Source: Halobacterium bonnevillei
GTDB lineage: Archaea > Halobacteriota > Halobacteria > Halobacteriales > Halobacteriaceae
Direction: 5' to 3'
DNA length: 64,000 nt
Assembly: GCF_009831555.1 (NCBI RefSeq)
Contig: NZ_WUUU01000001.1
Location: 1 to 64,000 of the forward strand
The notes beneath the pieces are model-generated. The model was not told the DNA's origin. It saw only the letters and a list, made by a program, of their open reading frames with translations, and ran no database searches. The translations under genes and the position numbers were made by a program. Below are positions 44,784 to 62,462 of the stretch, in pieces; positions within the stretch are counted from its first letter, which is position 1, and each line of letters begins with the position of its first letter.

Positions 44784-44832
44784 ACCCCACCCTACTTCGC
44801 TCACCCTGAGGGGTTCGCTCGTGGAGGGTGGG
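44784..44832 (-). ncRNA. tnpB transposon right-end hairpin / likely ωRNA 3' scaffold
   Basis: An 8-bp stem CCCCACCC / GGGTGGGG (44784-44791 with 44825-44832) spans the tnpB stop codon. In IS200/IS605-type elements the ωRNA (reRNA) overlaps the 3' end of tnpB and the right end, and its guide is copied from DNA just outside. On the minus strand the putative guide would begin near 44780. The RNA itself is inferred. Confidence 0.5.
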
Positions 44833-46057
44833 GCTTGTCCATGAACTCGGCCTCGAACTCATCCGGGTAGGCGGTAAATCCGCCATTCGGCGTCACCGTT
44901 CCAGACTGTAGGGCAAGCTGACTGTTGCCCGTCCGCCGAGACGACTGTTGGCCCCGACGGACATACCGCAATCCGATGTTCTTCGCCGCGTTGTAGTCTG
45001 CGTTCGCTTCCGACTCGCACTTCTGACAGCAGAAATCGCTTCGATTCGGGCGGTTTTCGTCAGCCGTGAATCCACACTCGGCGCACCGTTTCGACGTGTA
45101 CGCCGACCCGACTTGCTTCACCGAGACGCCGACCGCTTCGGCTTTGTATTCTACCTGCTCGTAGAGCGTTCGGAACGCCCACTTGTGCCCCCACGACGCA
45201 CCCGTGTGGTCGCGAATGTGGGTCAGGTCTTCGAATGCGATCACGTCGCACTCGTATCGAAGTGCTTCGTCTACGATAGCATTCGACGCTCGGTGGAGTA
45301 CGTCGCGGACGTAGCGAAGTTCACGGCCACTCGACTGGAGGAGTGTTCGGTGGGAGCTTCGCGTGCCAGTCTGTTGGAGTCCGGCGCGTACCTTCTCGAA
45401 CTCGCGGAGGTTGTGGGTGAGTTCCCGCCCGCTGACGAAGGTGGCGGTACTGGTGACGGCGAGGTTTTCGATACCGAGGTCGACCCCGAGGACCGTTCCG
45501 TCCTCGGCGGTGTTGCGCTCGGTATCGGTCTTGTGGCGGCGGAAGCCGATGTGCAAGAAGTAGTCGCCGTCAGCGGCAGTGAGCGTGCTTTCCGTGACGC
45601 TCCACTCCTCAGAGTCGAGGTACTGCCGTTGGTAGCCATCGTCGGCGTCAGGTAAAGCAAGGTCACATCGGACGCGGCTCTCTGTGGTGGAGAGCGACAC
45701 CGTTTCGTCGTCAAACAGCGTCATGGTCCGGGTATCGTACTTCACCGTGGGTGCGGTGAACGTGGGTTTGCTGACCGTTTTGCCGTTCGAGCGGCGTTCG
45801 GTACAGCCAGTGATGGCTTGTGCGGCTTGGTGAGTGGCGAGAATCGCGTGCTGACTCCCGAGGTCGGTTTCCTCGCGCACGGTGTCGTAGGCCAAGGGTT
45901 GTACGTCGCTCTTGGCGTTGCACTTGCCCCACGCCATGTCGGTGGCGATCTGGCAACCACGCTTCCACTCGGAGATAGTTTCCTCAAGCAACTCGCGTTG
46001 CTCGCCATCTACCGAGAGGCGGGTGATTGCCGTCCGACGCACGTAGTCGTCTGCCAC
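44801..46057 (-). CDS. tnpB: TnpB-type RNA-guided nuclease (IS200/IS605, IS1341 group)
   Basis: 418 residues. RuvC residues are D193 in GVDLGIENLA, E276 in IAFEDLTHIR and D354 in ANADYNAAKN. The zinc ribbon is CAEC…CQKC. The start used is a GTG; an earlier non-ATG start cannot be excluded. No tnpA is adjacent. Intact catalytic sites suggest an active nuclease that cleaves the empty donor site. It is a different subfamily from the two tnpB genes at 57232 and 59806. Confidence 0.88.
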   Translation of the reverse strand: MADDYVRRTAITRLSVDGEQRELLEETISEWKRGCQIATDMAWGKCNAKSDVQPLAYDTVREETDLGSQHAILATHQAAQAITGCTERRSNGKTVSKPTFTAPTVKYDTRTMTLFDDETVSLSTTESRVRCDLALPDADDGYQRQYLDSEEWSVTESTLTAADGDYFLHIGFRRHKTDTERNTAEDGTVLGVDLGIENLAVTSTATFVSGRELTHNLREFEKVRAGLQQTGTRSSHRTLLQSSGRELRYVRDVLHRASNAIVDEALRYECDVIAFEDLTHIRDHTGASWGHKWAFRTLYEQVEYKAEAVGVSVKQVGSAYTSKRCAECGFTADENRPNRSDFCCQKCESEANADYNAAKNIGLRYVRRGQQSSRRTGNSQLALQSGTVTPNGGFTAYPDEFEAEFMDKPHPPRANPSG

Positions 46058-46275: not shown

Positions 46276-47049
46276 TTAATAGTGCCCGAGAACACCCCGT
46301 TTGCGTGCTTCGGCTGTCCCAACCCGGAAGACCAATAATCCGATCGCAAGGTAGACAACTGACTGCCCGACCAGTAGCCCAAGGTCGAATACCGGAAGTT
46401 CCCATACGCGGAGTCCATCCGTCATCACTCGTTGCAATACGTGACTCCCCAGCGACATTGGAAGCAGCTTCAACAGGGCATAGTCTTGGACTGGCAGGGC
46501 AATCAGGCCTGCAAACGATAGTTGGATCAGCGGAAACACCTTCTCAATCTGCTTGTAGACGAGCGCCGCCCCACCGAAGACGAATCCGAGGCCGACCACC
46601 GGGAGCAGCGTCAACACACCGACCACGACGACTGAGAGGGGTGCAATTGTAAGCCACGTCCCTGTCGTCGCCATCATCAACACCAGGAGGACCATACCGG
46701 TAGCGAACGTTCCCAAGAGGTTGACCACGGTCTTCATCGCAACTACCTCTGTGAAGCCGAACGGGGACATCGATAACTGTTCGAGCGTTCCCCACTGCGC
46801 CTCATCAGTCAGGTCGTGCGTGAGATCGGCGTATGCCGACACTGCCATCGTGAAGAGGAAATACCCGACAACGAGCGGTCCCACTGATCGGGAAATCAAC
46901 TCTTCTGCCACAAACTGCCCGCCGAAGAATATGAGCGCGAAAAACACGTACAGGGTCACGAATCCCACTACTGTATTCACGAGATAGCGACGCGAGAGCG
47001 TCACTGATTTGCTCGCGATCACGCGAAACAGGATGAGGTGCCGATTCAT
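46276..47049 (-). CDS. ABC-2-type transporter permease
   Basis: 257 residues with six hydrophobic segments, for example VVGFVTLYVFFALIFFGG, FATGMVLLVLMMATTG and VVGLGFVFGGAAL. The ending FRVGTAEARKRGVLGHY is typical of archaeal ABC-2 permeases. It overlaps the ATPase stop by 4 bp upstream, so the two make one transporter. Substrate unknown; drug or lipid export is common for this class. Confidence 0.85.
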   Translation of the reverse strand: MNRHLILFRVIASKSVTLSRRYLVNTVVGFVTLYVFFALIFFGGQFVAEELISRSVGPLVVGYFLFTMAVSAYADLTHDLTDEAQWGTLEQLSMSPFGFTEVVAMKTVVNLLGTFATGMVLLVLMMATTGTWLTIAPLSVVVVGVLTLLPVVGLGFVFGGAALVYKQIEKVFPLIQLSFAGLIALPVQDYALLKLLPMSLGSHVLQRVMTDGLRVWELPVFDLGLLVGQSVVYLAIGLLVFRVGTAEARKRGVLGHY

Positions 47050-48053
47050 GTCTCCGTCTCCTCCGGTGACACTGACTCAGCTGTGGTCAGCTCAACGAAG
47101 ACGTCTTCCAGATCAGGCTCGATTTCGGTGACCGACCTGATAGTCGCCTCTGCGGTCTGAAGGATCTCGACACACTCGTAGAACTCCTCGCTGCCTGCAA
47201 GCGCGATTTTGAACTCCGCGGAGTCAGTGTCGGTCCGCCAGTTGAGTAGCTTGAAGCGGGTGTCGAGTTGCTCCCGGAGGTGCGCTGGCGGGTTCCCGGC
47301 AAGTTGGACGCGGTAGGATTGGGATTGGAACACGTCGAGTAAGTTGTCGACGGAATCGTCAGCGACGATGTCGCCGTCACTGAGAACGATCACGCGGTCG
47401 CAGACGGCTTCGATGACATCCATGTCGTGGCTCGTAATCACGATCGTTTTGTCCTCTTCCTGGGCGAGGCGTTGCAATTCGGTTTGGAGGTCACGGGTCG
47501 TTTCGACGTCGAGGCCGAGCATCGGTTCGTCGAGGAAGAGGACGGGCGTTTCGCGGGCGAGGGTGGTGCCGAGCGCGACTTTCTGCTTCATGCCACGCGA
47601 GAGATTCTTGGCGGGTTCGTCTGCCTTTGCGGTGAGTCCGAGCGTGTCGATGATCGCCTCGTGTCTGTCGCCGCGTGTCCGTGGATCGATGCCATGGAGG
47701 CCAGCGAAGAACGCGAGATTTTCGCGTACGCTCAACCGCCAATAGACGTTGCGTGCGCCTTCGAGGACAGCACTCACGTAGTTGTATGCCCGGGAACGCG
47801 CCTCATGCACAGGGACGCCGTGAATAGAAACATCGCCACGAGTGGGAGTGACGAGTCCGAGAACAGTTTTGACGGTTGTCGTTTTCCCAGCGCCGTTTGG
47901 GCCGAGAAGTCCGACAATTTGTCCGGACTGAATATCAAATGAAATGTCATCAACGGCTGTGACCCGTCCCGTTTCCCCGGTATAGCGTTTTGTGAGGGCC
48001 GAGACCGAAACAACGGCGTCGTGTTCTGGAGGACCGGTTGTGCGGGGACACAT
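47046..48053 (-). CDS. ABC transporter ATP-binding protein
   Basis: 335 residues. Walker A is GLLGPNGAGKTTT, the signature is LSRGMKQKVALG, Walker B is VLFLDEPMLGLD, and the switch His lies in ITSHDMD. A C-terminal ~100-residue extension (SYRVQLAGNP onward) is as in ABC-2 drug/lantibiotic-type exporters. It pairs with the permease downstream (4-bp overlap). It starts at the ATG at 48053. Confidence 0.9.
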   Translation of the reverse strand: MCPRTTGPPEHDAVVSVSALTKRYTGETGRVTAVDDISFDIQSGQIVGLLGPNGAGKTTTVKTVLGLVTPTRGDVSIHGVPVHEARSRAYNYVSAVLEGARNVYWRLSVRENLAFFAGLHGIDPRTRGDRHEAIIDTLGLTAKADEPAKNLSRGMKQKVALGTTLARETPVLFLDEPMLGLDVETTRDLQTELQRLAQEEDKTIVITSHDMDVIEAVCDRVIVLSDGDIVADDSVDNLLDVFQSQSYRVQLAGNPPAHLREQLDTRFKLLNWRTDTDSAEFKIALAGSEEFYECVEILQTAEATIRSVTEIEPDLEDVFVELTTAESVSPEETET

Positions 48054-48898: not shown

Positions 48899-49050
48899 GC
48901 GGCAGCACTGTCGTTCGCCTTCGCATTCATCAGGACCAACCAGCTCCTCGTCAAGTTCGTGTGGACTGGTTCTTTAGAATAGGGTAGGGTTAGACGGATC
49001 CGGTGTTGTACGAATGAATTATTGTCACGGAGTGTGAATTAGTGGCCAAG

Positions 49051-49497
49051 ATGGTCTGTTCTCTCGACGAGCCCTTTCCGATCAAACCAGAGACGGCGGA
49101 CTACGAGGTACTTCGTGTGCTCGTCACCGATTACGAGGCCGGAGCCACACCCGCGGAAATCGCAGCCAACACTGAACTTAGTACCTCACGTGCGGCAGAA
49201 TCGCTGGGAGCGCTCTCGACGTCAGCACTCATTAACCAGGAGGATGGAGTCTATTACGTCAATCCGTATCAAGCTGACCGGTTGAAGCGGCGACTCGAAT
49301 CAGTGGATGCAGTCGAGCAACTTTTCGATTCGACTCCAGACGACGATGTCTACGCCGAACCAGGATGGGACGATCAAGTATCAAGCATCGGCATGGAGGA
49401 CGATTCAGACACCGTTGACTCGCGATCCTCAAGAACTGTTGAGGAAGACGCTGAGGGTCTCGTCGCAGAAATCGAAGAACAAAACTCAACCGGCTAG
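49051..49497 (+). CDS. winged-helix domain protein
   Basis: 148 residues from the ATG MVCSLDEPF (a GTG three codons upstream is possible). Residues 18-75 (YEVLRVLVTDYEAGATPAEI, SRAAESLGALSTSALI, DGVYYVNPYQADRL) form a MarR-like winged helix. The C-terminal half is acidic and disordered. A likely DNA-binding regulator in front of the accessory region; targets unknown. Confidence 0.68.
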   Translation: MVCSLDEPFPIKPETADYEVLRVLVTDYEAGATPAEIAANTELSTSRAAESLGALSTSALINQEDGVYYVNPYQADRLKRRLESVDAVEQLFDSTPDDDVYAEPGWDDQVSSIGMEDDSDTVDSRSSRTVEEDAEGLVAEIEEQNSTG

Positions 49498-49798: not shown

Positions 49799-50413
49799 TC
49801 ACTGCCAGTGGTAAAATACACTGACGACGATGACAACGAAGCCAGTTGAAAGGGCTCCCCACGCAAGCGCTGCGCTTCCAATCGAAAGTGTGGGTGGAGC
49901 TGAGAGTCTAAGCAATACGAGCGTTAGCAGTGTCAGGCTCAATCCGACCACGAGCGCAGAGAGCCAAAGACGCTCAAACGCTAGGTACTGAAACCGTGAT
50001 TCTTCAGCGTCATTCGCTCTTGGACTTGATGAGTGTTCGGACCCGTCACTGCTAGAATCTGGTTCAGGTACTGTCGCGTCAGTCGTCGACTCAGTGGAGA
50101 GGTTCAGTGAGTTCGACAGCCAGTACTGGTGGGGTTCTCGACTCGTATCGCGATCCAGAATGCCGGCTTCGACGAGATCGGTTAACGCCGGGTGGCTTGA
50201 TGATTTCGCGGGGTCGATAGCAGTGTGGTCTTGGAGATCGGCTTCGACTTCGTGACGAGTGAGCGCTCGGGGTGGACTATCCGCCTCGTTACGAACGAAT
50301 ACTCTCGCGTACGTCCACCGTGAGTGCTTCCGCAGTTGGTCAAAACCCGCTTCGGAGAGTGCCTCGTGAAGTTCGTCGGGTAGCGCCTCGGTGTCGTTTC
50401 GACTGGCCATCAT
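49799..50413 (-). CDS. membrane protein with N-terminal winged-helix-like domain
   Basis: 204 residues. The first ~100 (DELHEALSEAGFDQLRKHSR, LTRHEVEADLQDH, ALTDLVEAGILDR) look like a winged helix. A Ser/Asp/Glu-rich linker follows, then two membrane helices (LWLSALVVGLSLTLLTLVLL and LAWGALSTGFVVIVVSVFY) end the protein. The DNA-binding-like domain would sit on the inner face of the membrane. It is divergent from the operon at 50611. No family is recognised. Confidence 0.6.
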   Translation of the reverse strand: MMASRNDTEALPDELHEALSEAGFDQLRKHSRWTYARVFVRNEADSPPRALTRHEVEADLQDHTAIDPAKSSSHPALTDLVEAGILDRDTSREPHQYWLSNSLNLSTESTTDATVPEPDSSSDGSEHSSSPRANDAEESRFQYLAFERLWLSALVVGLSLTLLTLVLLRLSAPPTLSIGSAALAWGALSTGFVVIVVSVFYHWQ

Positions 50414-50610
50414 CTGGCGTTTCTGTTGGTTTCAAATTCCCGATGCAAGATAATTCCATCGCGATTCCCCGGCAAACTCGACCTAGGATATAAATTCACT
50501 GGCTGATTGGATAGTGGGTTCCGCAGCCGAACGGTCGTTCGACGCTCGAACGCGCGTCTGCTCGACATCGCTCCCTAATAGCACTCCGTGAGGGGGCTAC
50601 ACCGTCGCCA

Positions 50611-51426
50611 ATGACAGACAACCAAGCAGGTCCAAACCACCGCTCGCTTTCAGCGGCGTATCGGCAAGCGGGCTATACAATCACAGACGCCCCAGGTTTC
50701 CAGCGGGCTGACGCCGCCACCCTGTGGGTGGCTCGTGATGACCAGCCAATTGCTGTCGTCGCGTCTCTACGCAACCCTACGAAACCGGGTGTACTCCTCA
50801 GGAACGTCGATCAACTCAGCCGGCACGCACGCATCCATCTCGTAACCGGCTCACCGGGGATAGCTAGCCGCGTCCGAGAGCTCCTCCGGAACCCGGTTCG
50901 AAGGCGGACCGACTGCGGTGTCGAGTGTTTCCTCCATCCAGCACAGTTCGTCCTCGATGGCTCTCGACTCGCCGTCTCCGAGCCCCACGTCTGGATTGCA
51001 ACGACCGATGAACAGTCACCGCCTGACGGGACTGTGCTCTCAGCCACATTGAGACTCGCGAACGCATCTGAAAGTGAGACTGAGCCATCGAATCCGGCGG
51101 CCAGATCCATCAAAAAACGCCCCGGATACGAGTCGACGGTCACCGAACTGGAGAGCACCGAAACACTCCCGGAGTCATCGTATCTGGTACGGAAACCGGT
51201 TATTACTGATCAACCGGGGGACGGTCACGGTGTCGTCGTCGCTGTCCTCAGTGATAGCGGACTCACTGCGGACAACCCCGCGCGGAATCGCGCTCCGGAG
51301 TCGCTTGGGCAGGAGACGAAGCCCCCGCGGGTTCTGGGAGACGAGCCCTGGGCGATGTCCGCCCCACCGGCGTTGGCGGTCACTCGACTCCATCTCGTTG
51401 CTCAACGCGAGTGGGAGGACAGGTAG
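50611..51426 (+). CDS. unknown protein A of a three-gene accessory operon
   Basis: 271 residues. Residues 13-100 form a compact α/β module: SAAYRQAGYTITDAPGF, ATLWVARDD, PIAVVASLRNPTKPG, LLRNVDQLSRHARIHLVTG. Its layout recurs in the next two proteins (about residues 450-512 and 359-442). The rest is Ser/Glu/Pro rich with an H-x-x-x-Q ending and lacks recognisable domains. It starts at the ATG after an intergenic region facing the membrane protein gene. The next gene begins 11 bp after its stop. Function not identified. Confidence 0.65.
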   Translation: MTDNQAGPNHRSLSAAYRQAGYTITDAPGFQRADAATLWVARDDQPIAVVASLRNPTKPGVLLRNVDQLSRHARIHLVTGSPGIASRVRELLRNPVRRRTDCGVECFLHPAQFVLDGSRLAVSEPHVWIATTDEQSPPDGTVLSATLRLANASESETEPSNPAARSIKKRPGYESTVTELESTETLPESSYLVRKPVITDQPGDGHGVVVAVLSDSGLTADNPARNRAPESLGQETKPPRVLGDEPWAMSAPPALAVTRLHLVAQREWEDR

Positions 51427-51436
51427 TTCATAATCC

Positions 51437-53812
51437 ATGTCAATTCAACCGCAGCAGCTTGACGCATACCAGGACCCAGACAGCGAAGACAGTGAGGACT
51501 CCGAGGAACTTCCGGCGCCGTCGAATGTTCCGGCTAGTCCGACGATGGTGCGGAGCCTGCAGGGTGGTCCAAAACAGCGCCAGAACGCGATTCGGATCCG
51601 GCTGCCGCGCGACCCTGCGAAACGTGAGGAGCTCCCCGAGGACATCCATGGGGTGTTGCTGTGGGTTATTAGCGACGTGTGTGGTGAAAGCTGTATCGCG
51701 GGCGTCGAAGTTCTCATGTTCCCGGGCCCGTATGGACTTGAGTTCGTGCTCCATCCGCGGCCATCAGTACTCGATGGTCGGAGCGATACCCAATCGACGC
51801 TCGATTCGTTCACGAAAAAGATCTACTCGCGGCCGGTGAGTAACCTCAAGCAGTCGGTCAAGCGCCGCTATCCAAGTTCGGTAACCGCCGAGATCGGGCA
51901 TCTCGACCTTGAACCCGTCGGGATTACCGATGTGACGACGACGCGATTGTACTCGCTGAAAGACGGGAACCGGATGACGCCGGGTAACAGCAAAGCGAAC
52001 CCACTTGCTGTGCTGTTCGATGCGTTCCGGCAGGCCCACGACCCGTTCATCTACCAGGTCATCATCAGTGGCGAGGATGGCGGGTACAGTCTGTGCGTCC
52101 GGTGTGCGACGTACCGGCCGAAGGACAACTACGTCAGTGACCGCGAGTTCGCGAAACTCGTTGAACGCGGGAAGCCATCGGATCTCGCCCACGTCTTCGG
52201 TGACGGCAACCTCGTCTCGAATCACGATGCGGCGCTGGCGGCCCCCTACTGGAAGACGAGTTACACCGAACACGTCGACGGAAACGACTCGTATCGAGCG
52301 AGCTACAGCTACGAAAAAGAGACGCCGTATAAGGGCAAACAGCAAGTCCGACGTGAAGCCGACACGATCAAAGACGTCGTTCTCGGGCAGACTGCACACC
52401 GACGGCTCATGAGTGGTGACACGACCACCGAGTTCATCCTCAAAGACGAATTCAACCGATACGGGTGGATCCCAGCGCTAGAAGCCCAGCTCAAACCCTT
52501 CGTCCGAACGGTAACGCTACGGTGGAAGACGAACCCGTGGCGTGACGTCCGCGGACGCGACCCACCGGAGTTCAATTCGATTGAACCAATCGAGATCGAA
52601 ACCCCAGCCGAGTTTGGACTCGGCGAAGGCCGAGAGGATACCCCGTCCGATGAGACCGGTGTTGAAAACGAGGGCGGACCCGTCCACCGCTCGCTCGGAC
52701 AGTTCGCCCGGCGAGTCTTCAGCGAAGGCGGGGACGATATCGAAGAAGTCGACCAGACCACCGATACCCTCCCAGATAACCGCATCACAACCAACGGCAC
52801 CATCAAGACACTCGGCATCCAGGTTGACTCGGATATTGTCGCCGTTGAGCCTGAAAGCAAAAACGCCACGAAGGCGGCGAACACGCTGCGCAACGCTGAA
52901 CGAGCGATGGCTGCCGGCCGGCACGTCATCTTCGTGTACAACCAATCGAACGTCGAACTTGGGTACAAGCATCTCGACGAGCCGTACAAGAAACGCCTCG
53001 AGGACCGAATCGAGTTGTACAATGGAACCGACCGCGTGCAGGCTGTCGACGGGCGGTATCTTGTCCGGCGCGGCGACGGCAACACGACCTACGAGCTCAA
53101 ATCACGGACGCTCATCGTTTGCGACGACCACGGCGAACTGGCCCGTGGTCCAGCAACCGACGATGTCGCCAGCTTCGAGTGGCCGATCGTTGGGACTGGT
53201 GACGAAGCAGCAACGAGCACTGAGGAACTGCCGGCCGAGCGGTGTGGGTACTATCGGAAGACCGATGACGGTACTCACCGCATTGAGACCGCGGACGGGA
53301 CGGCGATTACGACGTACAGTGAAAAGCAGGCGTTTCTCGCTGACTGGACGTGGATTCGTGAACCGCACGTGCCGGTGGCGCTCAGTTACCTGCACGCGGT
53401 GACGGTCACGTACCGCGACGAGCAGACGAATCAACTCGAGGTTTACGACCCATCCCCGGACTGGGAGACGAACGACCGGACGGACACCCAGGAAGCCGGT
53501 GTCGAAGCCTTCCATGACACGTTCATCATCGAGCGGGATGGCCCGGAGTTGACCTACGATGACTTAGAAGCCGCGTTCACGCCGTGGTTCGAGGGGCACT
53601 CGCAGTTCGATGCGCCGATCAGGTCAGTCATGGGCGGCCACCACCCAAAACCGTTCAAGCAGGCGAAAACGAGCGGCACGGGCAACGATTACCGCTACTT
53701 CGACGGGTACGACTGGCTGTTCGCCCCCAGCCTCGACTCACCGCATCAAGCAAGCCCGCCCGCCGACTACGACCCAGACACAGACTCGGACTCGGAATCC
53801 GAGCCTGAATAG
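51437..53812 (+). CDS. unknown large protein B (possible conjugation-ATPase N-domain relative)
   Basis: 791 residues with acidic ends. Residues 50-400 (LYSLKDGNRMTPGNSKANPL, AFRQAHDPFIYQVIISGEDG, YWKTSYTEHVDGNDSYRASY) recall, from memory, the N-terminal non-ATPase region of haloarchaeal VirB4/HerA-type conjugation proteins. No Walker A or B motif is present. Residues ~450-512 repeat the operon's shared module and here contain VAVEPESKN, an E-x-E-x-K pattern that could be a PD-(D/E)xK-like site. It is the second gene of the operon. The identity is uncertain. Confidence 0.6.
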   Translation: MSIQPQQLDAYQDPDSEDSEDSEELPAPSNVPASPTMVRSLQGGPKQRQNAIRIRLPRDPAKREELPEDIHGVLLWVISDVCGESCIAGVEVLMFPGPYGLEFVLHPRPSVLDGRSDTQSTLDSFTKKIYSRPVSNLKQSVKRRYPSSVTAEIGHLDLEPVGITDVTTTRLYSLKDGNRMTPGNSKANPLAVLFDAFRQAHDPFIYQVIISGEDGGYSLCVRCATYRPKDNYVSDREFAKLVERGKPSDLAHVFGDGNLVSNHDAALAAPYWKTSYTEHVDGNDSYRASYSYEKETPYKGKQQVRREADTIKDVVLGQTAHRRLMSGDTTTEFILKDEFNRYGWIPALEAQLKPFVRTVTLRWKTNPWRDVRGRDPPEFNSIEPIEIETPAEFGLGEGREDTPSDETGVENEGGPVHRSLGQFARRVFSEGGDDIEEVDQTTDTLPDNRITTNGTIKTLGIQVDSDIVAVEPESKNATKAANTLRNAERAMAAGRHVIFVYNQSNVELGYKHLDEPYKKRLEDRIELYNGTDRVQAVDGRYLVRRGDGNTTYELKSRTLIVCDDHGELARGPATDDVASFEWPIVGTGDEAATSTEELPAERCGYYRKTDDGTHRIETADGTAITTYSEKQAFLADWTWIREPHVPVALSYLHAVTVTYRDEQTNQLEVYDPSPDWETNDRTDTQEAGVEAFHDTFIIERDGPELTYDDLEAAFTPWFEGHSQFDAPIRSVMGGHHPKPFKQAKTSGTGNDYRYFDGYDWLFAPSLDSPHQASPPADYDPDTDSDSESEPE

Positions 53813-53912
53813 CGACATCCCACCCCGAGGCTGTCACCTGCATTGTCTCCCCTACTCTCGTGAGTTCCACACCAACCACCAGCGACCCAATCCTGTTCGA
53901 CGATTCCCAGCT

Positions 53913-55943
53913 ATGACTGAACCACCCCACGATACTTGGCAAGCACTTGAATTCATTCGTGATCCGCGAGCATCGCGGCCGCGACACGCGAGCCCGCTGC
54001 ACAAAACCGTCGCCAACATCGTCCACGACGCCGTTCGAACGTACGATTGCGGGCCAATCACCTACCTCTCGCTCCCCGGGGTAACCCGGCAGCGAACGCT
54101 GCTGCGAGCTGGCTCACCACCCACAAACCCACCACCGCTGCAAGACATCAACACCAGTGACGTCACGCCCGAAACGCAGACGCTCGCCGCGCTCGCAGAC
54201 GCCGACACGGCCGACGACATCGGACTGGCTGTCGTTGCCGTCGAGACCACCCCGATTGGACGCACGGATGCGTTCACACAGCGACTACTCGCAGAAGAGC
54301 CGACCGCACCAGCGTCCTTCTCGACGACACCACCAGCACTCGCGCCCGTCCTCGAAGAAATCGATGGACAGCCCCACGCGTTCAGTGTCGTGGCCGAGGA
54401 GAGTCCGGCTGGCGATATCGAGGTCGCCGTCCGGCTCGTCGATTTCACGCCGTCAAGCCAGATCACGTCCCGTGACGCATTCGCCCAGACACACCCAGGG
54501 TCGCTGAGCGACACGATCGACGCCCCGGACCTGGTAACTAACTGGGAGCTCCCGGCGGAGAATGGGTGGACGCGACGGGTCGAAGACCGACACCGGGCTG
54601 ACCGCCCGGTGCTCCGGCAGACGATCCACTCACGGTACACCGACACCCCGACGAAGCAGGCGCTCACCGTGACCGCCTCCGCCCACGAGTACGCCCAACT
54701 GTGGACGCAGGCGCCAGCTGACCCGCTCGCCGAAGTGTACGAGCAGTACGGGGTGACCGGCCGACTCACCGCCGCCCCTGGCGAGCTGCCAGCGCTGTAT
54801 CCCGTCGTCAGCCGCCTGTATCCAGACTCCGTCTGGACCCACGTCGCTGGGCGAGCCCCCATCCAAGTAACACTCGTCACCCCCATAATGATCCCACACG
54901 GCCTGACCATGACCGACGCTGATCCGACCGCCCACGCCACGAAGAAGACCCCAGCGACGGATGGCGGGTCCGTGTCAGCGTTCGAGGGATCCGTGCGGCG
55001 GTGGTGTCTCGAGCGTGGCGAGACGCTAACAGCACGGCCATCATCCCCGCCCGGCGTTGCGTTCCAGCGGACTGCAGCTGATGGCACTCGGACGCTGGCG
55101 TACCTTTCGGCAGGGGACGCCCTCCAGCCTGGACGCCTCCTCGCAGCAGTCTGGCACGCCCACCACGAGGCTGGCACCGCCGGCGTCAGCGTGTTCGCGC
55201 CATCGCAGACGCGCGCCACGCAGGCGGCCACGATCCTCGGCCGGCCGTTCAAACCCACGCCACCGGAGACCCTGACAACGCTGTACCCCAAGCCAACACC
55301 ACTATCGTGTCAGAAGGGGGTCGCGGTCCGCTCCCGCGAACACCCCGTCGAACGGTGGGTTATAACGCCGGACAACGAACTTCGCTGTATCATCGATGGC
55401 ACGGTCGTCGCGAGCGCGCCACTGACAGCGCCGCTTGCAACAATCGCCGAGCAATTCGTCTGCGTTTCGACCGACGGTGAACCAGTAACCGTCACGCACC
55501 CAGACGGCACGACAACCGACGAACGCCGCGAGACAGTCAACAAGATGGCAACCCCGATTCAGGCGCCAGCACGCCCCGTCCATCTCGCAACCGGCCGTGA
55601 AACAGCAACCGTCTACGCCCAAGACGGCCCGAACTTTACAGACATCCGCCACCCCTCGACCACCAGCCCCCTCTCGAATCGCAGTCCCGATGACGTCGCG
55701 ACCGCGTTCTGGGAGACGTATACGATTCCCGACGACTCCGGGACACTCCACATGCAGACGACACTCCCCGAAGTCGTCTCCTACGCTCGCCACCAAAGCG
55801 ACCGACCACCGCGGCCCCCCGGCTGGATCCATCTCCAGCGACTCCACGACACCACCCCGCCGACGCGTCCCACCCAGTCACGAACCACAATCGACGGCCG
55901 AACACTCCGGTATACGCCACCCGCACGAAACAACCCCGACTGA
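53913..55943 (+). CDS. unknown large protein C of the accessory operon
   Basis: 676 residues from the ATG MTEPPHDTWQ; a longer frame overlaps protein B. It is Thr/Pro/Ala rich with no membrane segment. Residues ~359-442 (RRWCLERGETLTARPSSPPG, RTLAYLSAG, GTAGVSVFAPSQTRATQAAT) reproduce the module of protein A. Earlier parts (residues 30-60, CGPITYLSLPGVTRQRTLL) have no known match. It starts 100 bp after gene B. Its conserved length and intact frame argue for function, which is unknown. Confidence 0.58.
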   Translation: MTEPPHDTWQALEFIRDPRASRPRHASPLHKTVANIVHDAVRTYDCGPITYLSLPGVTRQRTLLRAGSPPTNPPPLQDINTSDVTPETQTLAALADADTADDIGLAVVAVETTPIGRTDAFTQRLLAEEPTAPASFSTTPPALAPVLEEIDGQPHAFSVVAEESPAGDIEVAVRLVDFTPSSQITSRDAFAQTHPGSLSDTIDAPDLVTNWELPAENGWTRRVEDRHRADRPVLRQTIHSRYTDTPTKQALTVTASAHEYAQLWTQAPADPLAEVYEQYGVTGRLTAAPGELPALYPVVSRLYPDSVWTHVAGRAPIQVTLVTPIMIPHGLTMTDADPTAHATKKTPATDGGSVSAFEGSVRRWCLERGETLTARPSSPPGVAFQRTAADGTRTLAYLSAGDALQPGRLLAAVWHAHHEAGTAGVSVFAPSQTRATQAATILGRPFKPTPPETLTTLYPKPTPLSCQKGVAVRSREHPVERWVITPDNELRCIIDGTVVASAPLTAPLATIAEQFVCVSTDGEPVTVTHPDGTTTDERRETVNKMATPIQAPARPVHLATGRETATVYAQDGPNFTDIRHPSTTSPLSNRSPDDVATAFWETYTIPDDSGTLHMQTTLPEVVSYARHQSDRPPRPPGWIHLQRLHDTTPPTRPTQSRTTIDGRTLRYTPPARNNPD

Positions 55944-57231: not shown

Positions 57232-58491
57232 ATGCATTACGCCTACAGGTTCCGGCTCAAGCCAACTGCTGACCAGCGTGAGCTGTTGGATTACCACCGA
57301 GACACCTGTAGGCAACTCTACAACCACGCTCTCACCGAGTTTAACAAGATTCCCGAATCGGCGGGAACACTCAATCAACGGGTGCGGCAAGTCCGCGGCC
57401 AACTCACCGACCTCAAAGACTGGTGGGACGAGTTGAACGACCTGTACTCGACGGTCGCACAGGCCACAGTCATGCGGATTGAAGACAGTGTCACAGCACT
57501 GTCTGAACTGAAAGAGAAGGGCTACAACGTCGGCAGTCTCAACTGGAAGGCACCCAGAGATTTCCGCAGTTTCACCTACGTCCAGTCTGGCTTCGAGTTC
57601 GACAAGAAGAACGGTCAGACTGTGCTCTCGTTGTCGAAACTCGCGGATATTCCCATTGAGTGCCACCGACAAATCCCCGACGATGAGACGGTGAAAGAAG
57701 TCACGCTCAAGAAAGAACCGACCGGGGAGTGGTATGCCTCCCTCGCCGTCGACGACAAAGAGGAACCGTCCAAACCGTCGCTGGCGGAGATCAACGACGA
57801 CGACATGGTTGGCATCGACGTGGGTATTCTGAAGTATGCCCACGACACTGACGGCACGGCAGTTGGGTCACTCGACCTCGTGGACGAACGCGATAGGCTC
57901 GAACGAGAGCAACGGAACCTCTCGCGCAAAGAGCATAGGTCGAACAACTGGGAGAAACAACGTCGGCGTGTTGCCGAGTGCCACCAGGAAATCAAACGCA
58001 AGCGGCGTGACTTCCTGCACAAACTCTCGAACTACTATGCTCGGGAGTACGACCTGGTGGCCGTCGAAGACCTTGACGTGAAGGGAATGCTGGCATCGCC
58101 GGGCAATAGCCGCAACACGGCGTCTGCGGCGTGGAACACCTTCACCGATTTGCTCGAATACAAATGCAAGCGTGAAGGCACACATTTCGTGGAGGTTGAC
58201 CCAGAAGGCACGACCAAGGAATGTGCGTCCTGTGGCGTCAAGACAGACAAACCGCTCTGGGTGCGTGAACATTCCTGTCCTGCCTGTGGCTTTGAAGCGG
58301 ACAGAGATGAAAACGCAGCGTGGAACATTCTTTCTCGCGGCCTCACCGACCTAGGAGTGGGTCACTCCGAAGGAACGCCTGTGGAGACTGCGCTCCCTAC
58401 GGGAACTGCGGTTGTTCCTGCAAAGCGCGTCTTGGAAGCAGGAAGCCCCTGCCTCAAGGAGCCGCCCAAGGCGGCGAGTAGGCAGGGGTAG
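57232..58491 (+). CDS. tnpB: TnpB-type RNA-guided nuclease
   Basis: 419 residues. RuvC catalytic residues are D196 in GIDVGILKYA, E279 in VAVEDLDVKG and D359 in ADRDENAAWN. The zinc ribbon is CASC…CPAC. N-terminal YRFRLKPTADQRELL and RQLYNHAL are the usual start. It looks complete and active. With the DUF2080 gene and right-end hairpin it forms a tnpA-less transposon. It is related to the protein at 59806, sharing GYNVGxL, EVTxKKExTGEW and VREHSCPACGF. Confidence 0.92.
   Translation: MHYAYRFRLKPTADQRELLDYHRDTCRQLYNHALTEFNKIPESAGTLNQRVRQVRGQLTDLKDWWDELNDLYSTVAQATVMRIEDSVTALSELKEKGYNVGSLNWKAPRDFRSFTYVQSGFEFDKKNGQTVLSLSKLADIPIECHRQIPDDETVKEVTLKKEPTGEWYASLAVDDKEEPSKPSLAEINDDDMVGIDVGILKYAHDTDGTAVGSLDLVDERDRLEREQRNLSRKEHRSNNWEKQRRRVAECHQEIKRKRRDFLHKLSNYYAREYDLVAVEDLDVKGMLASPGNSRNTASAAWNTFTDLLEYKCKREGTHFVEVDPEGTTKECASCGVKTDKPLWVREHSCPACGFEADRDENAAWNILSRGLTDLGVGHSEGTPVETALPTGTAVVPAKRVLEAGSPCLKEPPKAASRQG
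58446..58488 (+). ncRNA. right-end hairpin / likely ωRNA 3' scaffold of the 57232 tnpB
   Basis: CCCCTGCC (58446-58453) pairs with GGCAGGGG (58481-58488) around an inner GCCGCCCAAGGCGGC hairpin. It overlaps the last codons and stop of tnpB, as expected for the RNA that guides the nuclease. The guide would be read from about 58492-58510, immediately outside the element. The RNA is inferred from layout. Confidence 0.5.
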
Positions 58492-58535: not shown

Positions 58536-58820
58536 ATGGTGAAGGTGGATTCGAAAGGACGAATCGTCCTCCCGCAGGAACTACGTGAACAACTCGATAT
58601 CACGCCTGGAACAGAAGTCGACATCCACGAAGAAGACGGCAAAGCAGTCGTCGAACCCGAAGACAACCCCCGTGAAATCCTCGACCGAATGACAGAGCTC
58701 ATCGAGGAAACAGCCTCAGAGACTGGGGAGACAACGCCACTTGCCGACGGCGTCGACCCAATCGCCGACAAACACCGAACTGCCGTACGGAAGGCCGCAA
58801 ACAACGCCAGCGATGAGTGA
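58536..58820 (+). CDS. AbrB-family antitoxin
   Basis: 94 residues. The N-terminal 45 residues (VKVDSKGRIVLPQELREQLD, ITPGTEVDIHEEDGKAVVE) are a canonical AbrB/MazE swapped-hairpin DNA-binding domain. The acidic C-terminal helix region would bind the toxin. It overlaps the PIN-domain gene by 8 bp, the usual VapB-VapC arrangement, and probably autorepresses the pair. The gene sits directly behind the tnpB right end, so the promoter may lie in the transposon edge. Confidence 0.85.
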   Translation: MVKVDSKGRIVLPQELREQLDITPGTEVDIHEEDGKAVVEPEDNPREILDRMTELIEETASETGETTPLADGVDPIADKHRTAVRKAANNASDE

Positions 58821-59280
58821 CGCTGGCGGGCCGTATCTCTTCGATGTTGGTGTCATCGCCCTCGCACACACAAAAGCACCAGGCCGCGAGTCTGCGCTTT
58901 CGTATGTTCGTGACGGGATTGCTGGCAACATCGATGCTGTTGTTCCCTATCCTGCAGTGTTTGGCGCACATACTGTCCTCACGACGTACTACGGACGATC
59001 AAATGCCGATGCATCCCGACTCCTAGAAAATTTCACTGACGCAAAGCGAATCCACTGGCACGATGGCCCCTCTGAAGGCACCGTTTCTGGCGCGTTTGCA
59101 AACGCCAGTCAAGCAAACGTTGATGGCTGGGATGGCTACTATGCACAAGTCGCTATCGAGGAAGGAGTGAATACAGTGTTAACAATTGATGACGACTTCG
59201 AACGGTTCGACGAATTCGAAACCGAAATCATTCTCTCAACCAACGAATTCCGCCGACTAAATACGTTCCTCGAAAACTGA
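58813..59280 (+). CDS. PIN-domain toxin (VapC-like)
   Basis: 155 residues from the ATG MSDAGGPYLFD. The first acidic residue is in LFDVGVIALAH, and the C-terminal pair is seen in VLTIDDDFERFD. The usual Glu of the second motif is not obvious (PYPAVFGAHTVL). PIN toxins cleave tRNA or mRNA. The 8-bp overlap with the AbrB gene supports a toxin-antitoxin unit. Confidence 0.8.
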   Translation: MSDAGGPYLFDVGVIALAHTKAPGRESALSYVRDGIAGNIDAVVPYPAVFGAHTVLTTYYGRSNADASRLLENFTDAKRIHWHDGPSEGTVSGAFANASQANVDGWDGYYAQVAIEEGVNTVLTIDDDFERFDEFETEIILSTNEFRRLNTFLEN

Positions 59281-59805: not shown

Positions 59806-61047
59806 ATGGAACACAGTCACCGCTACCACGCCTACCCAACAGGAGAGGTAGCGGAGCGACTGGAACGCCATCTGAACGTTCATCGCCAACTCTACAACCA
59901 CGTCCGCTGGGACTACACGAACAGCTCCGAGGACGACAAGCCGAGTGAGTACGACCAGAACAACAAACTCCCCGGGTGGAAACGCAAGTGGCCCGTCTTT
60001 AGTGAACTGCACTCGAAGGCCGCTCAAGCCACTGTTGCACGCTTCCACCGGAACCTCTCGAACCTTCGCAAGAAGAAAGAGAAAGGGTACAACGTTGGTC
60101 GGCTCAAACGGCAATCACCCACCGAGTACCGAAGCGTGACGTACAACCAGTCCGGTTTCGACCTCGATGAAAAGAGGGGGCGCGACAAGTACGTATACGT
60201 TCGCTTCAGCAAAATCGGCTGGGTGAAAATCCGTTACCATCGCCCGATTCCCGACTACGCTTCCATCAAGGAAGTCACGTTCAAGAAGGAGACAACTGGT
60301 GAGTGGTTCGTCTCCTTCGGCCTCGAAACCAACGACTCAGACCTGCCCGAGAAACCCGATGTGGAGTCGCTCAACGCGAGCAACAGCGTGGGTATTGACC
60401 TCGGCATCCAGAACTACATCCACACGAGCGACGGCAAGACCGTGGACTGGCTCGACTTCGAAGACGAATTCGACCGTCTTCGCCGTGAACAGCGCAAGTT
60501 GTCGCGGAAGGAGAAAGCGTCGAACAACTACGAGAAGCAACGCCGGGAAGTGGCGAAGGTCAACCGTCACATTCGGCGGAAGGTGCTGGACTATCAGCAC
60601 AAGATAACGACGTGGCTGGTCCGCGAGTACGACGCTGTATTCGTTGAGGACTTGAATGTGAAGGGGATGCTGGAACAGTCGCATAACGCTCGCAACAAAC
60701 AGGACGCGGCCTGGCGACAGTTCATCACCCTACTCGAATACAAGGCCGACCTGTACGGCTGTCACGTCAAGCAGGTCGAAGCGCGAGGCACTACCAAAGA
60801 GTGTGCATCGTGCGGTGTGGAGACGGCGAAACCCATCTGGGTCAGAGAACACTCCTGTCCAGCGTGTGGATTCAAGACGGACAGAGACGCGAATGCGGCG
60901 ATGAACGTCCTGCAACGCGGCTTTTCTGAGTTAGGGCTGGGATGGCCCGAAGACACGCCTGTGGAGACTGTGACCGCTACGGACACGACTCAGTTTGAGT
61001 CTGTGTCTGCAAGTCACGTCGTAGAAACGGGAAGCCTCGGGGCTTGA
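59806..61047 (+). CDS. tnpB: TnpB-type RNA-guided nuclease
   Basis: 413 residues. RuvC residues are D198 in GIDLGIQNYI, E281 in VFVEDLNVKG and D361 in TDRDANAAMN, with the zinc ribbon CASC…CPAC. It starts YRYHAYPTGEVAERLE with the RQLYNHVRWDY box. It appears functional. No tnpA or DUF2080 gene adjoins. Its 3' end overlaps, tail to tail, a fragment of an opposite-strand tnpB, with the hairpin at 61035-61055 common to both. Confidence 0.9.
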   Translation: MEHSHRYHAYPTGEVAERLERHLNVHRQLYNHVRWDYTNSSEDDKPSEYDQNNKLPGWKRKWPVFSELHSKAAQATVARFHRNLSNLRKKKEKGYNVGRLKRQSPTEYRSVTYNQSGFDLDEKRGRDKYVYVRFSKIGWVKIRYHRPIPDYASIKEVTFKKETTGEWFVSFGLETNDSDLPEKPDVESLNASNSVGIDLGIQNYIHTSDGKTVDWLDFEDEFDRLRREQRKLSRKEKASNNYEKQRREVAKVNRHIRRKVLDYQHKITTWLVREYDAVFVEDLNVKGMLEQSHNARNKQDAAWRQFITLLEYKADLYGCHVKQVEARGTTKECASCGVETAKPIWVREHSCPACGFKTDRDANAAMNVLQRGFSELGLGWPEDTPVETVTATDTTQFESVSASHVVETGSLGA

Positions 61048-61803: not shown

Positions 61804-62190
61804 TCACTCATCGGTGCGGGGTTCCAACGAGAGACGTTCAGCATCGGCATCCTCGTACGCTTTGTCTGACGAGAAGAGCGCCAGGCCCCGCGTGTCGGCA
61901 ATTGCAGCGTGGAATGAATCGAATGGCGTCATCCCGTCCTCGAAGTACGTGACCGCTTTCAAGACGACCTGCTTCTCGTCCTCACTGCCAACCGGGATGA
62001 CCTCCAGAAGGTTGGCGAACAAGCGGACGTAGTCGAACTGGTTGCGGTCCAGAACAATGAGCATCTCCAAGTACGCGAATGGCGAGGTGACAACTTCCCG
62101 CTCATCGAGGACGTCTTCGGCGCGCTCCTGAAGCCAGTCGTCTTCTTTGGCGATAGCGAGGAGGAAGTCGGTCTCAACGAAGACTGTCAT
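61804..62190 (-). CDS. PIN-domain toxin (VapC-like)
   Basis: 128 residues. Acidic site residues are D8 in FVETDFLL, the Glu of AYLEML, Asp in MTPFDSFHAAIA and Asp in LFSSDKAYED: all four expected positions. It would act as an RNase toxin. It overlaps the AbrB antitoxin gene by 4 bp. It is a different subfamily from the PIN protein at 58813, so this is a separate toxin-antitoxin pair. Confidence 0.88.
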   Translation of the reverse strand: MTVFVETDFLLAIAKEDDWLQERAEDVLDEREVVTSPFAYLEMLIVLDRNQFDYVRLFANLLEVIPVGSEDEKQVVLKAVTYFEDGMTPFDSFHAAIADTRGLALFSSDKAYEDADAERLSLEPRTDE

Positions 62191-62462
62191 TCAGCCGCGT
62201 CCCTCGCGTCTCGTTTCGCCTGTTCTAGGTCCGCTTCAGCTTCCTGTTTCGCTCGCTGGAGCGCTTCCGCCCGCAGCTCTTCTCTCGATTCCCCCTCCAG
62301 TGAGTCCCCGATTTCATCCCGGACGGCCTCCAGCGGGTTCTCCTCAATCGGAATGAGTTCGATCCGATCCTCGTATTCGATTACGTGGAACCGCTCGCCG
62401 TACTTGTCTCGGAGTTCTGCTGGGAGGTAGAGGCGTCCATGAGAGTCTGTTTCGACAGACAT
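62187..62462 (-). CDS. AbrB-family antitoxin
   Basis: 91 residues. The N-terminal ETDSHGRLYLPAELRDKYG and FHVIEYEDRIELIPIEE form the AbrB fold. A long charged helix follows (REELRAEALQRAKQEAEADL), which would bind the PIN toxin. First gene of the pair and presumably autorepressing. Confidence 0.87.
   Translation of the reverse strand: MSVETDSHGRLYLPAELRDKYGERFHVIEYEDRIELIPIEENPLEAVRDEIGDSLEGESREELRAEALQRAKQEAEADLEQAKRDARDAAE

Follow-up and report, generated by a model that had tools for sequence, protein, structure and literature searches.

An undescribed haloarchaeal gene cluster encoding a predicted PD-(D/E)xK nuclease related to conjugation ATPases

Gene content and surroundings of the locus

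The stretch of DNA analysed here (the window, 64,000 nucleotides of Halobacterium bonnevillei) covers the first half of a 128-kb contig in a draft assembly of 362 contigs. It contains an undescribed haloarchaeal gene cluster of three genes, A, B and C, preceded by a divergent gene D (Table 1). A sequence-only reading of the window had given the coordinates, lengths, shared strand and consecutive order of A, B and C, all of which were confirmed, and the start codon position of C is backed by its closest relative. The same reading had assigned the three proteins to no recognisable family, in agreement with the database searches: none of them has a Pfam match at E ≤ 1, a match in NCBIfam or a meaningful PHROGs family. 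Furthermore, the PADLOC defence models match neither A, B, C and D nor their homologues. Measured against the nearest relative, all four genes are under purifying selection, with dN/dS values of about 0.15 for the N half of B, which is the part of B covered by this figure, 0.21 for C, 0.39 for A and 0.30 for D.

Table 1. Features of the D-A-B-C locus (window positions)
Feature	Coordinates	Strand	Description
D	49799..50413	-	204 aa; winged-helix protein, divergent, with two transmembrane helices at its C-terminus
D-A intergenic region	50414..50610		Alignment with two relatives
A	50611..51426	+	271 aa; lone nuclease module and the beta-rich domain behind it; PD and ExE lost
B	51437..53812	+	791 aa; predicted catalytic subunit; 26 aligned homologues
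B N-domain, aa 1-385	51437..52591	+	Weakly related to the ATPase N-terminal domain
B PD-(D/E)xK-type module, aa 405-516	52649..52985	+	AlphaFold2 model and Foldseek neighbours
B C-terminal region, aa 517-770	52986..53746	+	Beta-rich domain, then a stretch aligning with the Pox_D5-like winged helix of the ATPases
C	53913..55943	+	676 aa; B paralogue over its full length, without the PD/ExE/K set

D shows hydropathy peaks at residues 148 and 178. The membrane winged-helix protein had been described as lying beside the three genes, and it does; however, D recurs as a component of the locus rather than as a mere flank: about 15 of the B/C loci (about half) have it, placed and arranged in the same way. 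The groups of D proteins match each other only in their HTH part (prob 93 and 50). In the D-A intergenic region, a TATA-like box (GATATAAAT) near 50488 is followed by ACGNNYGTY repeats at 50531 and 50550, about 20 bp apart. Among the relatives, L018 carries three copies of the repeat at an exact spacing of 20 bp and L064 one copy only. These repeats represent a putative operator.

Three TnpB-type transposon genes are found around the locus (44801-46057, 57232-58491 and 59806-61047), together with two toxin-antitoxin-like pairs of an AbrB-like and a PIN-like protein (58536-59280 and 61804-62462). The GC content of the window is 39-54% at positions 1-32000 and 54-65% from about 32 kb on; the low-GC part is possibly another acquired region. 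An ABC transporter pair at 46276-48053 is 81% identical to that of a relative (G113), and in an empty-site test the 20-kb stretch around the transporter in that relative (L134) had nothing else in common with the window. Since only the transporter pair is shared with G113, a variable region probably begins near 48.06 kb. A winged-helix gene, E, occupies 49042-49497, and a 48% identical relative of this gene directly adjoins another B/C locus (L017:10498-11031).

Homology of A, B and C and inheritance of the B-C pair

The sequence-only reading had proposed that A, B and C carry one common alpha/beta module. A profile built from six B proteins and searched against the whole genome of the window matched two stretches of C (E 3.5e-9 and 1.5e-6) as well as A, the latter at 50716-50937 (E 0.007). 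In profile-profile comparisons (hhalign), all three pairs are related, with B-C reaching prob 100 and E 6e-66 over 664 columns, A-B prob 97.4 and E 1e-11, and A-C prob 94.4 and E 9e-8. Judged by these profiles, the three proteins are homologous and share the module beyond chance. The module is thus present as proposed, but the relation between B and C is not confined to it and extends over nearly all of both proteins. Because the profile-profile homology is firm, B and C are assigned on sequence as paralogues along almost their entire length, and A as a separate copy of the module together with the domain that follows it.

B and C lie adjacent on one strand, in either gene order, in about 26 loci of Halobacterium, Halorubrum, Halostagnicola and other haloarchaea, among them Halobacterium sp. 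KA-4 and H. salinarum DSM 3754, which has two such loci. Co-occurrence of the homologues, on which the sequence-only reading had let its proposal depend, is therefore borne out for this pair. The two genes adjoin in every locus in which both are intact; in four further loci the C-like gene accompanying B is short or broken, and two further loci are remnants. In addition, the distances among B and among C proteins are closely correlated (mirror-tree r 0.97, 23 loci, Mantel p 2e-4), and an obligate partnership of B and C is very probable. Short A-like paralogues occur in a minority of the B/C loci, A being missing from most. A match between L007 and L020 was dropped as chance, the ORF lying antisense to a better coding frame.

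The spread of the pair is patchy, with B/C in about 24 of 392 genomes, and a search of 393 genomes of the phylum yielded no full-length B outside the order. Several B/C loci are on contigs of 3-4 Mb. The location of loci on multi-Mb contigs, together with the finding of no B on plasmids, counts as support for a chromosomal system.

The patchy spread and the decayed copies (L061, in which B is split, and the remnants L078-L080) also agree with a selfish or addiction cassette, in which a toxic B/C nuclease would be checked by D or A and would move with island DNA without benefit to the host. The toxin-antitoxin genes nearby point the same way. However, known toxin-antitoxin pairs do not resemble a system with two large, co-evolving subunits and a membrane protein, and most loci lack A while about half lack D, which makes such a cassette a very unlikely explanation.

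The nuclease-like module and its relation to conjugation ATPases

The residues of the B module were compared in an alignment of 26 B proteins, most of which are 18-40% identical to the B of the window. H417, P446, D447, E471 and E473 are present in 26 of 26 proteins and K479 in 24, and Q440, N486 and R489 complete the list of module residues; in the N-domain, R48, E91, R170 and R222 are invariant. The conserved pattern is P446-D447 ... E471-x-E473 ... K479, with the lysine on the helix after the ExE strand. An E-x-E-x-K pattern had been noted in B only. Its ExE part is invariant in the alignment, but its lysine, K475, is variable, and the conserved lysine is K479. At the matching columns C has no residue of the PD/ExE/K set, and in A both PD and ExE are gone, such that the conserved acidic residues expected of an active PD-(D/E)xK member are absent in both. 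Retention of the active-site set in one protein and its loss in the paralogues is what is usually seen where one subunit is active and the other dead. Residue conservation thus upholds the earlier suggestion that B is the likely catalytic member and that A and C are inactive partners, and B is predicted with fair confidence to be an active nuclease.

A model of the B module (243 residues, built with relatives of B, C and A) was obtained with AlphaFold2 at pLDDT 76 and pTM 0.63. Its elements follow the order alpha-beta-beta-beta-alpha-beta, which is the order of the PD-(D/E)xK core, with PD opening strand 2 and ExE ending strand 3. The best PDB neighbour in Foldseek is the VRR-NUC domain 4qbn (prob 0.82, E 0.33), and a viral structure library returned mostly VRR-NUC and other nucleases (prob up to 1.00, E 0.007 upward). 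Overall, the nuclease and VRR-NUC neighbours have prob 0.8-1.0 and E 0.007-0.3, every E being above 0.001. None of these hits is significant by E-value when taken singly, but the many nuclease neighbours together make the assignment likely, and on this model a PD-(D/E)xK fold is highly probable for the B module, where structure prediction agrees with the type of nuclease that had been proposed. The full-length AlphaFold2 model of B has pLDDT 58.7, is poor in the module region and gave no fold when compared with the PDB; a sequence search of solved structures in the PDB with B likewise returned no match. The B module resembles the VRR-NUC family, and the PD-(D/E)xK superfamily at large, in its core order, in the position of PD on strand 2 and in the acidic pair on strand 3. 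It differs in that B matches no Pfam or PDB entry by sequence, and in having ExE and a displaced lysine instead of ExK.

It is this departure from ExK, together with the absence of the lysine from 2 of the 26 B proteins and its variability in the ATPase relatives described below, that would fit a module that is dead throughout. B would then be a DNA-binding regulator or scaffold, in which PD and ExE bind metal or DNA and nothing is cut. H, PD and ExE are nevertheless invariant in all aligned B proteins and ATPase modules and are lost in the paralogues A and C, and a dead module is considered distinctly improbable.

The closest relationship of B outside the cluster is with haloarchaeal TraG/HerA-type ATPases of about 1050-1500 aa. 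Residues 410-750 of B match the C-terminal part of these proteins with prob 99.6 and E 7e-25 (hhalign), and B matches a shorter ATPase class with prob 99.1 and E 4e-19, whereas C aligns with the same C-terminal region at E 3e-11. The relatives carry TraG/TrwB or HerA domains and, in two of three scanned with Pfam, a Pox_D5-like winged helix, which Pfam did not find in B itself. They are annotated as 'conjugal transfer protein', 'TraM recognition domain' or 'primase-like DNA-binding domain-containing protein', and their modules have H, PD and ExE in common with B. The alignments leave hardly any doubt that the C-terminal half of B is related to these ATPases, which share the nuclease module, the beta-rich domain and the D5-like winged helix homologous to B 410-750.

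Between B and the ATPases, the firm profile alignment is limited to what follows the ATPase core. In the N-domain, B gives two weak matches to the ATPase N-domain (scores 28.4 and 26.3, with at most 18.1 in 25 column shuffles) and C likewise two (31.5 and 18.6, with at most 17.5 in 25 column shuffles), and the matches of B and C lie on the same diagonals. These similarities make a relation of the N-domains probable and suggest that the N-domain originates from the ATPase. Searches of Pfam and NCBIfam for a Walker-type ATPase domain returned no ATPase family for B or C. Since the C-terminal half is homologous and the N-domain matches, though weak, are consistent, B and C look like conjugation ATPases without the motor. 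In contrast to the ATPases, B and C lack the ATPase core, form a paired operon and are not found on plasmids.

The ATPase region is present on 70 haloarchaeal plasmid records (for example NZ_CP127175.1), where it is mostly annotated as conjugal transfer protein or similar; a further ATPase gene is located at L081:5378-9760. Plasmid typing classed 69 of the 70 records as non-mobilizable, and archaeal conjugative plasmids may therefore be missed by such typing. The association of B with phages or plasmids that had been envisaged was not found: three diverse B queries gave no match among the 72,556 plasmid records of PLSDB, and B was absent from phage and virus collections including IMG/VR. Searches of viral contigs and phages for the ATPase-type module were likewise negative. 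The neighbourhoods of the B/C loci show no recurring transfer genes (VirB4, TraG or relaxase). A conjugation link, as raised in the sequence-only reading, thus stands as descent from TraG/HerA-type ATPases and falls as presence in a transfer operon, given the lack of recurring transfer genes and of B in the plasmid, phage and viral collections.

These observations bear on the possibility that B/C is itself part of a DNA-transfer apparatus, namely a detached, motor-less piece of the ATPase located at the membrane, where it would nick or receive DNA in mating or in the transfer of plasmids or islands, with D as its anchor. The C-terminal half shared with conjugal transfer ATPases, the two transmembrane helices of D and the position of the loci in variable, probably mobile islands would all suit such a part. 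However, VirB4, TraG and relaxase do not recur beside the loci, B occurs on none of the plasmid records as opposed to 70 for the ATPase, and the ATPase is absent from half of the B/C genomes. A role in transfer is, on balance, unlikely.

Genomic islands and a possible role against mobile DNA

The B/C loci sit in variable islands, with toxin-antitoxin pairs, TnpB elements, Orc1/Cdc6 and similar island genes as neighbours. An Mrr-type restriction cassette, present in 21 of 195 sampled genomes, lies within about 10 kb of B/C in 10 of its 28 copies in B/C genomes, compared to about 0.6% expected under random placement; islands gather many kinds of genes, so that this co-localisation is weak evidence. 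The cassette (L061:3169-6930, plus strand, and near other B/C loci) encodes a 953-aa, an 85-aa and a 216-aa protein with Pfam Mrr_cat. It has no strong PADLOC match and is possibly an undescribed restriction-type system. Near the B/C locus of Halorubrum yunnanense, a RAMP-superfamily-like protein just under the Pfam cut-off is encoded (L018:7654-8511).

The parent ATPase is equally common in genomes with B/C (12 of 24) and in general (210 of 392); its presence does not differ with B/C, and the genome-level counts therefore give no hint of plasmid exclusion. The idea that B/C genomes lack the ATPase was discarded, the search behind it having scored only two candidates per genome. A defence role fits the patchy spread, the variable islands and the proximity of the Mrr-type cassette, and from this context an action against mobile DNA has an even chance of being correct.

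The best reading of the locus, to which we likewise give about equal weight for and against, is a chromosomal, horizontally variable haloarchaeal nuclease complex directed against mobile DNA. In this complex, B would be a metal-dependent PD-(D/E)xK DNA nuclease paired obligately with a catalytically inactive C, the two probably assembling into a hetero-oligomer in which C is structural. A would be a small additional pseudo-nuclease. D, a predicted winged-helix protein anchored in the membrane by its two transmembrane helices, may regulate the operon or tether the complex to the membrane. The ancestor of B and C would have been a TraG/HerA-type conjugation ATPase that lost its motor but kept its N-domain, nuclease module and D5-like DNA-binding tail. 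Docking on DNA or transfer complexes, inherited from the ATPase, could then allow incoming mobile DNA to be cut or blocked, the probable targets being conjugative plasmids first and viruses second.

Bacterial coupling proteins are known targets of interference by the fertility-inhibition factors PifC and Osa (PMC5696584). A block of conjugation at the coupling-protein step, as exerted by these factors, may be a functional parallel, purely by analogy, to the nuclease complex proposed here, but PifC and Osa are plasmid genes (PMC5696584) and are not known to be homologous to B/C, whereas B/C is multi-subunit and chromosomal. More tentatively, the locus may represent a new archaeal chromosomal immunity, in which a motor-less conjugation ATPase was duplicated into an active and a dead nuclease subunit and turned against plasmids of the parent type, or against viruses; this possibility is rather doubtful.

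Haloarchaea recombine freely, and little is known about how their DNA exchange is controlled. A recurrent, undescribed nuclease pair derived from an ATPase would provide a concrete, testable factor in haloarchaeal DNA exchange. Furthermore, the nuclease-like module inside the haloarchaeal conjugation ATPases could bear on how the DNA of archaeal plasmids is processed for transfer.
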